This document shows, in pieces, positions 25,836 through 30,633 of a stretch of DNA of 64,000 nucleotides (within the stretch, counting starts at the first letter, position 1; every line of letters starts with the position of its first letter). The stretch lies in the NCBI GenBank assembly GCA_027449965.1, contig DAIDKP010000005.1, positions 1-64,000 on the forward strand, given 5' to 3'. The notes under the pieces are model-generated. The model saw only the letters and a list, made by a program, of their open reading frames with translations. It searched no databases and was not told the origin of the DNA. Origin of the DNA: Acidobacteriaceae bacterium. Lineage in GTDB: Bacteria; Acidobacteriota; Terriglobia; Terriglobales; Acidobacteriaceae. The position numbers and the translations under genes were made by a program.

Positions 25836-27668
25836 TTACTGCGGGGTGGATGTCGCATTGGGCGGAGCCGGTTGATTTGCTGCGCTCGACGGAACGTTGC
25901 CCGCGGTGGGTGGAACCTCGTCTCCAGCGTCCGCGTCGCAATGATGACCATTCACCGCATACGCCGCTTTGAGGCCACGCTCAGCGGCAAGCCGAGTGTC
26001 CAGTTGGCCATCGCGCGCGGCCAGAGCAGCCTTGTATTGTGCAATGGCTTCATCGCGCTTGCAACTGAGATCCAGCATCCGTCCGAGATAAATGTGAGAC
26101 CACGAAGTTATGCGTGGCTCTTTGGAGCTTTGTGCTGCTTTCTGAAAGTTCTCAATAGCCTGCTCTGGCTGCCCGCTCATAACCGCAACCCGAGCAAGGA
26201 TAAAGTTCGCTCTGCCAATTCCCTGCCCCGGGATCGACGAAGGATTGGCCAGTGCCGTCTGCGCCAGGCTCGCCGCTGTTCGGGTGTCTCCAGCTTCCAG
26301 ATGAGCCTCTGCAATATCCAGCCCCTGAAGTTGTCGCGGCTTGCTTCGGCTCAGCACATCCGCGTCCACTGTCTTGTCAAAATCGATCTGGCGAATGACA
26401 TGCGATTCATGCTCAACATCCATGCTGTAGACCATCTCTCCAATCACATCCGATAAGCTCGCCGGATCTTTTTCAAACTGCACCATCTGAGCATAAAAGT
26501 ATTGCGTGAATACCCAGCCCTGCTGCATATCGTGTTGCACACGAGCTTGACGCACACGCTCCATCTTCTCTGCCACTGCATTTTTTGCGCTTTCGATTTT
26601 CTCAAAGTCTTCGCGCGTGGCATCCGGAGGAACCACATAGGGCTGGATGCCAGTATCCATCGTGCGCGCTTCAATCGCTTTGATCAGACACTCGATCGTC
26701 AGTGAGGCGACGTCACTTCGATACTGATAGTCGATCGGGGCATCCTGCACCAGCTTTAGCAGCGGCAGGAAGCGATCCATCGAGTCGCGACGCTGCAGCA
26801 GCAGCGGCTCGATCAGATAATGCAGATACGTGTGCCGCACCTCATTCATGGGAATTACGCCGTGCTTCGGCGAGACCACGTCTACATAATCCGTGCCATA
26901 GATGCGCGCATTGATGGTGTCAGGAGAGAGCTGCGGCTCGACGACAACAAGAAAACGACGCCCTTCGTAGCCAGGCACAGGCATCTTCAGGTAGTAGCTT
27001 GTGCTCAGAATCATCTTTGTCAGGCTGTCATGAAGGCTGGCGGCTACCGCATCGTATTCGCGATGATGTGTGAGCCAGATGCCATGCAGATCAACGGCTG
27101 CGGCGTAATCTCGCAACACGGGAAGCATTTCTACCACCTGCGTCGCATCGGGTGGCATGTCGGAGAGTTCCACGGAAGTTTCCAGATCTGGTGGAGGAGT
27201 CAGATAAAGCGCGAGCGAAATATATTGCGTTACATCCCGGATGGTGCCTGTCATGTTGTGCTGCTGAATAAAGAGGCAGACTCTATCTCGCTTTTCACGT
27301 GCGGACTCGCTTGCAGTCAGAACTTTTTCAATCTCTTGGCGAAGCTCCAGTCGAATCGGCTCGCTGTCGACTAATCCATCGTTATAACCGCAGGAATTCA
27401 GTGCGGAAGCCATGGTAAAAACCGTCTCCGATGTAGTCAGCGAGATGGACGGACCATCTGGATCGACAAGCGAAGGAGACTTTTCATGTTTATACATCGG
27501 AGCGCCCGGAGATGACCTTGAAGCGCTGGACATACTGGAAGATGGGACAGAGTTTGATGAGCTGGAACTCGACTGCCCCAGCAGACCAGAACTGGAGGCT
27601 GCGACACATGCCGCCGACAAGAGAACGATACGCAAAGCGAAAGCGGATTGGAAGTGTTTCGACATCAT
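25836..27668 (-). CDS. Exported TPR-repeat protein, unknown function
   Basis: A 610-residue protein with a signal peptide (FALRIVLLSAACVAASSSGLL), then a Ser-rich linker of about 40 residues. A large helical domain of unknown type occupies the middle (about 80-440). C-terminal TPR-like repeats (about 450-560: GLDIAEAHLEAGDTRTAASL, SGQPEQAIENFQKAAQ, CKRDEAIAQYKAALAA) precede a Pro/Ala-rich tail. It probably serves as a scaffold in the cell envelope. Two ATGs in a row at 27668 and 27665 are possible starts. It is upstream of the dehydrogenase on the same strand. Confidence 0.75.
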   Translation of the reverse strand: MMSKHFQSAFALRIVLLSAACVAASSSGLLGQSSSSSSNSVPSSSMSSASRSSPGAPMYKHEKSPSLVDPDGPSISLTTSETVFTMASALNSCGYNDGLVDSEPIRLELRQEIEKVLTASESAREKRDRVCLFIQQHNMTGTIRDVTQYISLALYLTPPPDLETSVELSDMPPDATQVVEMLPVLRDYAAAVDLHGIWLTHHREYDAVAASLHDSLTKMILSTSYYLKMPVPGYEGRRFLVVVEPQLSPDTINARIYGTDYVDVVSPKHGVIPMNEVRHTYLHYLIEPLLLQRRDSMDRFLPLLKLVQDAPIDYQYRSDVASLTIECLIKAIEARTMDTGIQPYVVPPDATREDFEKIESAKNAVAEKMERVRQARVQHDMQQGWVFTQYFYAQMVQFEKDPASLSDVIGEMVYSMDVEHESHVIRQIDFDKTVDADVLSRSKPRQLQGLDIAEAHLEAGDTRTAASLAQTALANPSSIPGQGIGRANFILARVAVMSGQPEQAIENFQKAAQSSKEPRITSWSHIYLGRMLDLSCKRDEAIAQYKAALAARDGQLDTRLAAERGLKAAYAVNGHHCDADAGDEVPPTAGNVPSSAANQPAPPNATSTPQ

Positions 27669-27724: not shown

Positions 27725-29005
27725 TCAAGCGGGCGCAAAAGGCATCTCGATGGAGCTGCTTTGCGGAGTAAACAGCCGGGCGCCATCGTCCGTAACATGC
27801 ATATCGTCTTCCAGACGTACGCCAAACTCTCCACGCAAATAAATTCCCGGTTCGTCCGAAAAAGTCATGTTCGCGTGAAGCGGCAACGGATTGCCCTGCA
27901 CCAGATACGGCCACTCGTGCATGTCCAGGCCAATCCCATGACCTACCCGATGCGTGAAATGCGCGTATCCAGGTCCAAAGCCGGCATCTGTGATCACCTT
28001 GCGAGCGGCGGTATCCACGGCACCGCACGGCACGCCCGGACGTGCTGCGGCAAGCGCAGCGCTCTGCGCACGATGCACCACATCAAAGACCTGCTTCATG
28101 CGATCCGTAGCCTTGCCAACGACGAAGGTCCGACTGATATCGGACTGGTATCCCTGCACGATGCAGCCATCATCCAAAAGCACCACGCTACCCTCGCGAA
28201 TCGTCTGCGGATCAGGCGATCCATGCGGCAAAGCCGAGTATGCATCCACCTGACAACTGGCTTCGCCCGGAAAGCCGGAACGCTCATAGCCGCCAGCGAT
28301 CCAGGAAGTAACCTGCCGATTGGTGACTCCCGCGGTAATGGATTCCCAGGCAGCTCGATAGACGGAAAGGGTGACGTCGTTGGCCAGTTGCATCAAAGCA
28401 AGCTCTGCAGCAGACTTGACCGCTCGGCACCCAGCAGTCACCGGCGTCGCACTCTCGAGCGTAAAAGCTGACACAGCGGTTCGAATGCCATCTGCAAAGA
28501 CAAACGGAACGCGTTCTTCGACTCCCAGTTTGCCGCTTCGGAGGCCAATGTCATTCAGCCCCTTCGCTACAAGCGCATAGGGATTTTCGTTTTCCTGCCA
28601 GGTGTAAACGCGCGAGAATTTTCCGCCGGGCGCATTCTGCATCAAATCTCGTGCCCGTTCCTCTTCAAAAGCTGGCGCAACGTAAAACGGTGCACCATTG
28701 CGCGGCAGCACGCAGACAAAAAGTCGCTCCGAGTTCCACCAGTGAATGCCAGTGAAGTAGACCAGCGACGACCCGCCGGCAAGCACGATAGCATCCAGAC
28801 CCGATCCTTGCATCTTCTGCTGCGCTCGTTCGTATCGCCTTTCGCGTTCCGTGAGTGAAATGGGCTGAGCTTCGGATCTGCGATTCGGCAACTTCATAAG
28901 CGCCGGGGGCAACGAAGACGATTGCGCATCCGCGATCAGTGAGTGGGTGGCCAGTGCAGGAAGAAGCAGACCGGGGGCACAGACAAACTGACGTCGATTT
29001 ATCAC
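27725..29005 (-). CDS. Tat-exported M24 metallopeptidase (Xaa-Pro aminopeptidase-like)
   Basis: A 426-residue peptidase. A GTG start at 29005 preceded by GAGGTGA is preferred over the ATG at 29044, because it places a twin-arginine signal (INRRQFVCAPGLLLPAL) at the N-terminus. The pita-bread metal ligands are all present: Asp in VVLLDDGC, Asp in SDISRTF, His in GHGIGLDMHE, Glu in SDEPGIY and Glu in RLEDDMH. It would remove N-terminal residues before proline from peptides in the periplasm. Folding in the cytoplasm with metal loaded explains Tat export. Confidence 0.9.
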   Translation of the reverse strand: MINRRQFVCAPGLLLPALATHSLIADAQSSSLPPALMKLPNRRSEAQPISLTERERRYERAQQKMQGSGLDAIVLAGGSSLVYFTGIHWWNSERLFVCVLPRNGAPFYVAPAFEEERARDLMQNAPGGKFSRVYTWQENENPYALVAKGLNDIGLRSGKLGVEERVPFVFADGIRTAVSAFTLESATPVTAGCRAVKSAAELALMQLANDVTLSVYRAAWESITAGVTNRQVTSWIAGGYERSGFPGEASCQVDAYSALPHGSPDPQTIREGSVVLLDDGCIVQGYQSDISRTFVVGKATDRMKQVFDVVHRAQSAALAAARPGVPCGAVDTAARKVITDAGFGPGYAHFTHRVGHGIGLDMHEWPYLVQGNPLPLHANMTFSDEPGIYLRGEFGVRLEDDMHVTDDGARLFTPQSSSIEMPFAPA

Positions 29006-29086
29006 ACTCACCTCAAAGCATTCTTCTGGCACAACTGGAATCAAGAAAAGAGAAGATCAGGCAAGCGGCAAACTGAGAATGGTTGT

Positions 29087-29791
29087 TTAACCATGCACGG
29101 AAACATCGGCGAAGGAGAGTACAGCCAGCCCACGCACCGGCCTGCCGTAGACGCGTGCAGGCTCAAAGATGCTGAAGAGAAGTTTATCTTCGATCGCCGA
29201 ACGCGTCCTGGAGTCGCTGGGCCCGGAGACAATTCGGTAATCATAGACAAGACCATCCGGATTGACATACGCTTCAACCACGATTGGAGCCGTCACATTG
29301 CCGATCGATCCATCTCCTTCAACAGCGGGTAGCTCATAAAGCAGACGGGGTGAAGTCGCAGCTCCCAGTGGCTCATCCAACGCAGCGGCTTTTTCCGGGC
29401 GCGCGAAAAGCCCTACCGTCAGCGCGACCGAACCAAGCAATAAGACTGCACTGGCTAATCCCATAGATAGTTGCAGAAGAAATGGGCCGATACTATTCGC
29501 CCAGAGTATCCTCCAGGCTGGAATAAGACCACTTTTACTGGCCCGACGCTCCTGATCCAGAGCAATGCGAATGCGAAGCGGCAGGTCGCGCGGTGCCTTC
29601 CCGGTAGCTTGTGACGTGTTGAGAACGGAGAGTGCGCGCAACAGCGACTCTTGTTCGTGAAATTCCGTAGCACAGTCCTTGCATTCGTCCAAATGCCGGT
29701 GAATCCTCTGCATCTCTTTGCCAGAGAGACGACCATCCAGGCATTCGCAAAAGCGAGAACGAATATTGCCGCATAGATGATTCAAAGTCAT
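29087..29791 (-). CDS. Zinc-finger anti-sigma factor fused to a TonB C-terminal-like domain
   Basis: A 234-residue membrane protein. Residues 1-60 hold a zinc anti-sigma (ZAS) domain with H33-x3-C37-x2-C40 and an upstream C15/C17. A membrane helix spans about 103-130. The periplasmic part from about 168 to 230 (VVEAYVNPDGLVYDYRIVSG, then FEPARVYGRPVRG) follows the pattern of TonB C-terminal domains: a strand, D-G-x-V, v-x-S-G, then F-x-P-A-x-x-x-G-x-P-V. It overlaps the sigma factor gene by four bases (ATGA) and should hold that sigma inactive. The TonB-like tail is unusual and suggests envelope sensing. Confidence 0.82.
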   Translation of the reverse strand: MTLNHLCGNIRSRFCECLDGRLSGKEMQRIHRHLDECKDCATEFHEQESLLRALSVLNTSQATGKAPRDLPLRIRIALDQERRASKSGLIPAWRILWANSIGPFLLQLSMGLASAVLLLGSVALTVGLFARPEKAAALDEPLGAATSPRLLYELPAVEGDGSIGNVTAPIVVEAYVNPDGLVYDYRIVSGPSDSRTRSAIEDKLLFSIFEPARVYGRPVRGLAVLSFADVSVHG

Positions 29792-30480
29792 GATGCCTCC
29801 TGGCGGTGCATGACTCCGGGGGGAGCGGTGAAACAGGCTTGAGTTGTCTTCGCACGCTTCAGAATCTGGCGCAGGCTGCTCCGCCCGCGCGCCAGACGGG
29901 ATTTCACGGTGCCGACGTGAATGCCCAGCATCTGCGCAACTTCCTCATAGGAAAACCCTTCCACATCACGCAAAATGACAGTCATCCGAAATGGCTCGGG
30001 AAGCTTTTGCAAAGCATCTTGAAGCCTCTGGTGGGCTTCCCGCTGGAAGAGCATCTCATCGGGCTTGTCAGCAGGGTCTTCAAGCATATCCATCAGACGC
30101 AGTCTTTCATCCCCATCATCGCTGCCGGTCTCTGTTTCCAGCGTGATCTCCTGCCGCTTGTGACGCGCCCACCAGCGACGCTGATTTAATCCCTCATGCA
30201 GCGCAATACGATATATCCAAGTGCAAAGCGAAGACTCCTGATGAAAACCGCCAATTCCGCGAAAAACCTTCACAAAAACTTCCTGCGTCAAGTCAGCGGC
30301 ATCTGCCGGATCACGAACCGTACGCACCAGCAAGCTGTAAATAGGCTGGTGATACCGCGTGATGAGCCAGGCAAACGCATCCTCTGAGCCGGCCTGTAGC
30401 TCCTGAATAAGCGCCGCTTCCGGCGCATTCCCCGCGATCACACTGGTCAAATTCCCCAAATCCCACTCCCCCGAGGACAA
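29788..30480 (-). CDS. ECF RNA polymerase sigma factor
   Basis: A sigma-70 family ECF factor of up to 230 residues. Region 2 is clear (LITRYHQPIYSLL, DAADLTQEVFVKVFRG, CTWIYRIALHE) and region 4 too (LPEPFRMTVILRDVEG, EEVAQMLGIHVGTVKSRL). The first codon is uncertain: TTG at 30480, or GTG at 30441, which has GGGGA upstream and gives a more typical length. It is co-transcribed with its anti-sigma factor. Targets are unknown. Divergent from msrB, which could be a target of the regulon, but no evidence in the sequence shows this. Confidence 0.92.
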   Translation of the reverse strand: MSSGEWDLGNLTSVIAGNAPEAALIQELQAGSEDAFAWLITRYHQPIYSLLVRTVRDPADAADLTQEVFVKVFRGIGGFHQESSLCTWIYRIALHEGLNQRRWWARHKRQEITLETETGSDDGDERLRLMDMLEDPADKPDEMLFQREAHQRLQDALQKLPEPFRMTVILRDVEGFSYEEVAQMLGIHVGTVKSRLARGRSSLRQILKRAKTTQACFTAPPGVMHRQEAS

Positions 30481-30633
30481 AATCCATTGCCAACACCTTA
30501 ACTCAGACGACTATCTTCTGGCATCAAAAATCGCCAAGGGATGGCGGATTTGCAGCAGATTTCGGAATTCACTGTACGCTACACTGGAAGCGAACCCGCG
30601 GCGTTAGATCCCTCCGCCTTCAGAGGAAATGAT

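Follow-up and report, generated by a model that had tools for sequence, protein, structure and literature searches.

An RpoE-like ECF sigma factor and a zinc anti-sigma factor with a TonB_C-related periplasmic domain as a candidate regulator of tonB-exbB-exbD in Acidobacteria

An RpoE-like ECF sigma factor gene and an overlapping anti-sigma factor gene were found in the window (the whole stretch of 64,000 nucleotides analysed here), and the pair is, in our judgement, fairly probably a regulator of the Ton motor. In this reading, signal-triggered loss of the anti-sigma factor would allow the sigma factor to transcribe tonB-exbB-exbD, and the periplasmic sensor would be derived from TonB_C. Our computations show the homology of this domain, its conservation, the pairing of the two genes and a promoter box common to the sigma gene and the tonB operon; this common box makes the module a probable regulator of the Ton motor. 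That this particular sigma factor reads the tonB box is what we infer from the sequences. The annotated features are listed in Table 1.

Table 1. Features of the sigma/anti-sigma locus and its surroundings in the window
Feature	Positions	Strand	Basis
Anti-sigma factor gene, 234 aa	29087..29791	-	ORF; orthologs in 187/200 genomes of the family
RpoE-like ECF sigma factor gene, 230 aa, TTG start as listed	29788..30480	-	Sigma70_r2, r4_2
Overlap of sigma stop and anti-sigma start, ATGA, 4 bases	29788..29791	-	Sequence
Zinc anti-sigma domain, residues 7-40 (C7, H33-x3-C37-x2-C40)	29672..29773	-	zf-HC2 E 6.7e-6
Transmembrane helix, residues about 100-132	29396..29494	-	Hydropathy
Short periplasmic linker, residues 133-167	29291..29395	-	Alignment
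TonB_C-related domain, residues 168-234, conserved V-x-G-COOH end	29090..29290	-	Profile comparisons
Gap between sigma gene and divergent msrB	30481..30540	.	Sigma box of most relatives absent here
M24 metallopeptidase gene, possibly co-transcribed	27725..29044	-	Pfam; gene-context table
Secreted TPR protein of unknown function	25836..27668	-	3' of pair in 15/41 contexts

The pairing with an overlapping ECF sigma factor gene, proposed in a preliminary description of this DNA, was found as described, with coordinates and frame correct. The sigma factor carries regions 2 and 4 (Pfam), and NCBIfam RpoE_Sigma70 matches it with an E-value of 2e-38, which is under the equivalog cut-off. Its best PDB matches include entries that we take to come from Pseudomonas aeruginosa (sigma-H) and Escherichia coli (sigma-E). 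By sequence, it is an RpoE-like ECF sigma factor. A sigma gene was also found beside the anti-sigma homologs examined in the context comparison. The M24 metallopeptidase gene adjoins the locus in the genus only. The secreted TPR protein, which has a large conserved N-terminal part without a Pfam match, occupies the position of rseB in E. coli.

The zinc domain and the membrane helix (placed earlier at residues 103-130) of the anti-sigma factor were both recovered. The H33-x3-C37-x2-C40 motif is present and the zf-HC2 match lies above the Pfam cut-off, while a single transmembrane helix is given by hydropathy. Together with C7, this motif is nearly invariant in 52 orthologs. With an Hx3Cx2C/zf-HC2 domain and a paired ECF sigma gene, the protein belongs by sequence with the class I zinc anti-sigma (ZAS) factors and is predicted to inhibit its sigma factor. 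No Pfam match to a FecR domain was found in the window protein at E<=10, and RseA_N matches occur in only six of the 52 family members (best E 0.016), too few for an RseA_N assignment. Two relatives (G031 and G095) have anti-sigma orthologs whose N-terminus, as called, is without the zinc ligands, the TonB_C-like domain and the upstream sigma gene being kept. The periplasmic part comprises about 100 residues, and its linker is poorly conserved in the ortholog alignment except for D139, P141 and P148. The last residue is glycine in 49 of 52 and in 15 of 18 anti-sigma proteins of two sets, and valine or isoleucine occupies the third position from the end in nearly all of them; the C-terminus (29090-29098) is conserved to its final residue, as if a free end mattered.

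The periplasmic domain had been likened to TonB by pattern, and all of the named motifs are present as stated (D179-G180-x-V182, S189-G190, F209-x-P211-A212 and G216-x-P218-V219), with G180, P211, A212 and P218 invariant in the 52 orthologs. On its own, the window domain matches Pfam TonB_C weakly (13.1 bits, E 0.14) and does not reach the gathering cut-off of 24.6; a family of C-terminal domains was therefore built. Thirty of its 48 members match TonB_C singly (best E 1.4e-4). Profile-profile comparison (hhalign) of the 48 anti-sigma domains with 24 acidobacterial TonB_C domains gave a probability of 94.9, an E-value of 4.3e-8 and a score of 43.7. None of 200 column shuffles scored above 25.6, and the reversed profile and the anti-sigma N-terminus reached 15.7 and 8.3. 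A PDB search with the domain profile returned eleven chains at E<10, all eleven of them TonB (best E 0.052). The relation to PF03544 is clear at the level of the family, with the window protein alone under the cut-off, and common descent of the domain family and TonB_C is established as far as profile comparison reaches. A TonB fold is likely for the domain. AlphaFold models from five sequences have a strand-strand-helix order like that of TonB, though at a low mean pLDDT of 50-52, and a Foldseek search with the C-terminal model (pLDDT about 50) gave no significant match. The window genome also encodes (C14:43342-43497) a small stand-alone TonB_C-like protein of 141 aa, which is apparently secreted and falls just short of the Pfam cut-off.

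Several features of TonB are missing from the anti-sigma domains. Of the 24 TonB_C domains, 23 have the YP motif, compared with 3 of the 48 anti-sigma domains. The tryptophan before F/Y-x-P, found in all 24 TonB_C domains, is replaced by serine or threonine in 39 of the 48. The linker from the membrane helix to the domain has about 36 residues, compared with about 118 in the TonB of the same genome, where it includes a run of prolines; the anti-sigma factor has no proline-rich linker. Its membrane helix lies at residues 100-132, not at the N-terminus ahead of a long proline-rich linker as in a functional TonB. Because YP and the tryptophan are lost and the linker is so much shorter, the anti-sigma factor is not a TonB and probably cannot reach receptors in the outer membrane, for which its linker is probably too short. 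These losses bear directly on the earlier proposal that the domain contacts a receptor at its TonB box or plug and so couples receptor occupancy directly with transcription. Such binding would be in keeping with the TonB_C homology and with the many Oar-like receptors, two of whose genes lie near the locus in the window (Pfam), but the missing YP and tryptophan, the short linker and the absence of a sigma-type box upstream of these two window genes all argue against it, and we consider it very improbable. As sigma targets, the two receptor genes of the window were rejected. What survives of the proposed link to the TonB system is its predicted output, a sigma-type promoter before tonB-exbB-exbD; a direct path from receptor state to transcription is not supported.

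Matches to the anti-sigma factor in the taxonomic family are mostly full-length. The search for the same architecture in other Acidobacteriota, advised in the preliminary description, was carried out with a profile from the 52 orthologs on 151 genomes sampled from the class. Some match was found in all 151 genomes and a convincing ortholog in about 137 of them, the remaining matches being weak, partial and to other anti-sigma factors. Judged by these profiles, the sigma/anti-sigma pair is conserved throughout the class. Outside the class, single-sequence matches mostly cover the zinc and transmembrane part or fall in the TonB_C domain of some other protein; one of these proteins is secreted, and another resembles an M56 peptidase with a TonB_C end.

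The sequence GGAAC-N15-17-GTGTCTA, or a close variant, was found upstream of the sigma gene in 31 of 39 contexts. A matrix trained on the sigma promoters alone was then applied to two sets of tonB genes from the family. It detected the box before 28 of 30 and before 20 of 20 of them, in all in 48 of 50 genomes, the window genome included, and mostly 60-70 bases upstream of the tonB start codon; among clean random segments the frequency at 15 bits is 0.23%. No box was found by the matrix before TonB_C genes of other types, and in other families of the class it occurs at at least 15 bits in 8 of 30 tonB-type loci. The tonB gene of the window genome (C23:170591-171313) is preceded by GGAAC-N16-GTGTCTG, with one mismatch, 64 bases upstream of its start, in an operon that lies after secD-secF and runs from tonB on to exbB and two exbD-like frames. 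A scan of the same genome for GGAAC-N15-17-GTGTC gave 10 sites, compared with 21 for the reversed control, and the tonB site alone is convincing. The sigma-type box on the tonB-exbB-exbD operon, a predicted promoter, is new here and goes beyond the earlier observation.

Eight genomes were also scanned for the exact box pattern, with the reversed pattern as control. The pattern occurs at 26 sites (17 in the control). Nine of them precede tonB genes and six precede the sigma gene; few further targets appeared in these genomes, none of them another sigma gene. In one relative (G177), two apparently secreted TPR-like proteins are encoded behind exact copies of the sigma box and might be further members of the regulon.

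The scan also bears on whether a different ECF sigma factor of similar preference reads the tonB box, in which case the present sigma factor would mainly regulate itself and the TonB likeness would be a coincidental reuse of the domain. One clade has GGAGC..GGTGTCTAA on tonB compared with GGAAC..GGGGTCTAT on the sigma gene, and because the two boxes differ a second reader of the tonB box is possible there. The tonB box is retained in four assemblies without a detectable sigma factor, and the sigma gene of the window species and its nearest relatives has no box upstream. In a fifth assembly (G010), however, the apparent loss has a simple cause, as the sigma gene is cut at a contig end, which also accounts for the missing anti-sigma factor. 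The sigma and tonB boxes moreover agree in several genera, that of the window included, and no other sigma gene stands behind the box in the eight genomes. A different reader of the tonB box is therefore regarded as improbable, though less so than receptor binding.

The divergent msrB might hint at a redox role, but among the relatives examined it adjoins the sigma gene only in the window and in those closest to it. In this species and close relatives, a short region common with the divergent msrB replaces the sigma box (Table 1), and other conserved blocks of this region, GATTTTTGATGCCA and AAGGTGTTGGCA, were observed in the nearest relatives. Autoregulation of the sigma gene may have been rewired in this group.

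The gene context suggests an envelope-stress role as the main rival to control of the Ton motor. The pair would then be the acidobacterial counterpart of sigma-E/RseA, the TonB_C-derived domain would merely offer a periplasmic fold to a site-1 protease or a stress sensor, and tonB-exbBD would be one envelope target among several. The sigma factor is RpoE-like, and in several relatives rnc and lepB come after the sigma, anti-sigma and TPR genes, an arrangement resembling the E. coli order rpoE-rseABC-lepA-lepB-rnc; the conserved V-x-G C-terminus could, in addition, serve as a recognition end for a protease. On the other hand, the scarcity of RseA_N matches and of exact-box targets beyond the sigma gene and tonB speaks against this role, and Pfam identified nothing like RseB or RseC among the neighbouring genes in the window. 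We hold an envelope-stress role to be rather unlikely, although better placed than a different reader of the tonB box.

If the pair controls the Ton motor, as we prefer to read it, the anti-sigma factor would bind the ECF sigma factor through its zinc domain and keep it at the inner membrane. Once the periplasmic domain received its signal, the anti-sigma factor would be inactivated. Stepwise proteolysis is the most likely route, and it is established for the RseA family. The freed sigma factor would then transcribe tonB-exbB-exbD, as well as its own gene in most relatives. The domain descended from TonB_C probably senses TonB, either its supply or its working state, or else something that TonB handles near the inner membrane. 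With a sensor derived from TonB and tonB as the predicted target, sensing of TonB supply or demand near the inner membrane is the simplest interpretation, and the cell may thus use a look-alike of TonB to regulate TonB. Counting against this reading are the missing box on the sigma gene of the window species and its closest relatives, the clade with differing boxes, the four assemblies that keep a tonB box without a detectable sigma factor and, for the sensing step, the loss of the signature residues of TonB. A more specific version, which we put forward only tentatively, is a homotypic feedback across much of the class in which the TonB-derived domain measures how much TonB is free and thereby sets the transcription of tonB-exbB-exbD. 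It would do so either by forming a pair with the C-terminal domain of TonB or through competition for the partners of the latter at the inner membrane.

The nearest precedent found is PUMA3 (VreA-VreI-VreR) of P. aeruginosa, an ECF pathway that regulates exbB2-exbD2 among other genes and has a periplasmic partner whose C-terminal domain is of the TolA/TonB type (PMC2729926). Both systems combine an ECF sigma pathway, a TonB-type periplasmic domain and an exbB/exbD target, but in PUMA3 the TonB-like domain belongs to VreA, a distinct and largely soluble protein of the periplasm that has an STN domain, and not to the anti-sigma factor VreR, whereas here the sigma factor is RpoE-like and the predicted target is the main tonB operon. 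The class I zinc anti-sigma factors (RsiW, RsrA and the ChrR group) similarly have a cytoplasmic Hx3Cx2C domain, are membrane-bound and have a cognate ECF sigma gene upstream, although PMC7406223 does not mention TonB_C-type sensor domains in these factors. FecI-FecR and HasI-HasS also tie an ECF sigma factor and its anti-sigma factor to Ton-dependent transport, and the gene of a TonB paralog, hasB, belongs to the has operon, which HasI regulates (PMC9249621); their signal comes from the N-terminal signalling domain of a receptor, whereas the present pair contains no receptor gene and its sensor is itself TonB-derived.

The E. coli RpoE-RseA system is similar in sigma type, in its anti-sigma factor with a single transmembrane helix and, for some relatives, in the order of rnc and lepB. 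It differs from the present pair in RseA_N, in the TonB_C-related nature of the periplasmic domain here and in the predicted main target, tonB-exbBD. With TonB_C (PF03544) itself, the anti-sigma domain has a common profile and the same order of conserved residues, but it scores below the curated cut-off and is without YP, the invariant tryptophan and a proline-rich linker. In the literature searched, which was incomplete, we found no paper on an acidobacterial anti-sigma factor with a TonB C-terminal domain. Neither did it contain a fusion of a zinc anti-sigma domain to a TonB-type domain, its conservation throughout a class or a link to the main tonB operon, and novelty is unproven on this basis.

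If control of the Ton motor by this pair is true, soil Acidobacteria with their many Oar-like and probably Ton-dependent receptors would have a dedicated ECF switch for the Ton motor, and a sensor made from TonB would be a new kind of anti-sigma sensor domain. With a concrete sigma factor, promoter box and operon, the matching of TonB supply to receptor demand would become testable.
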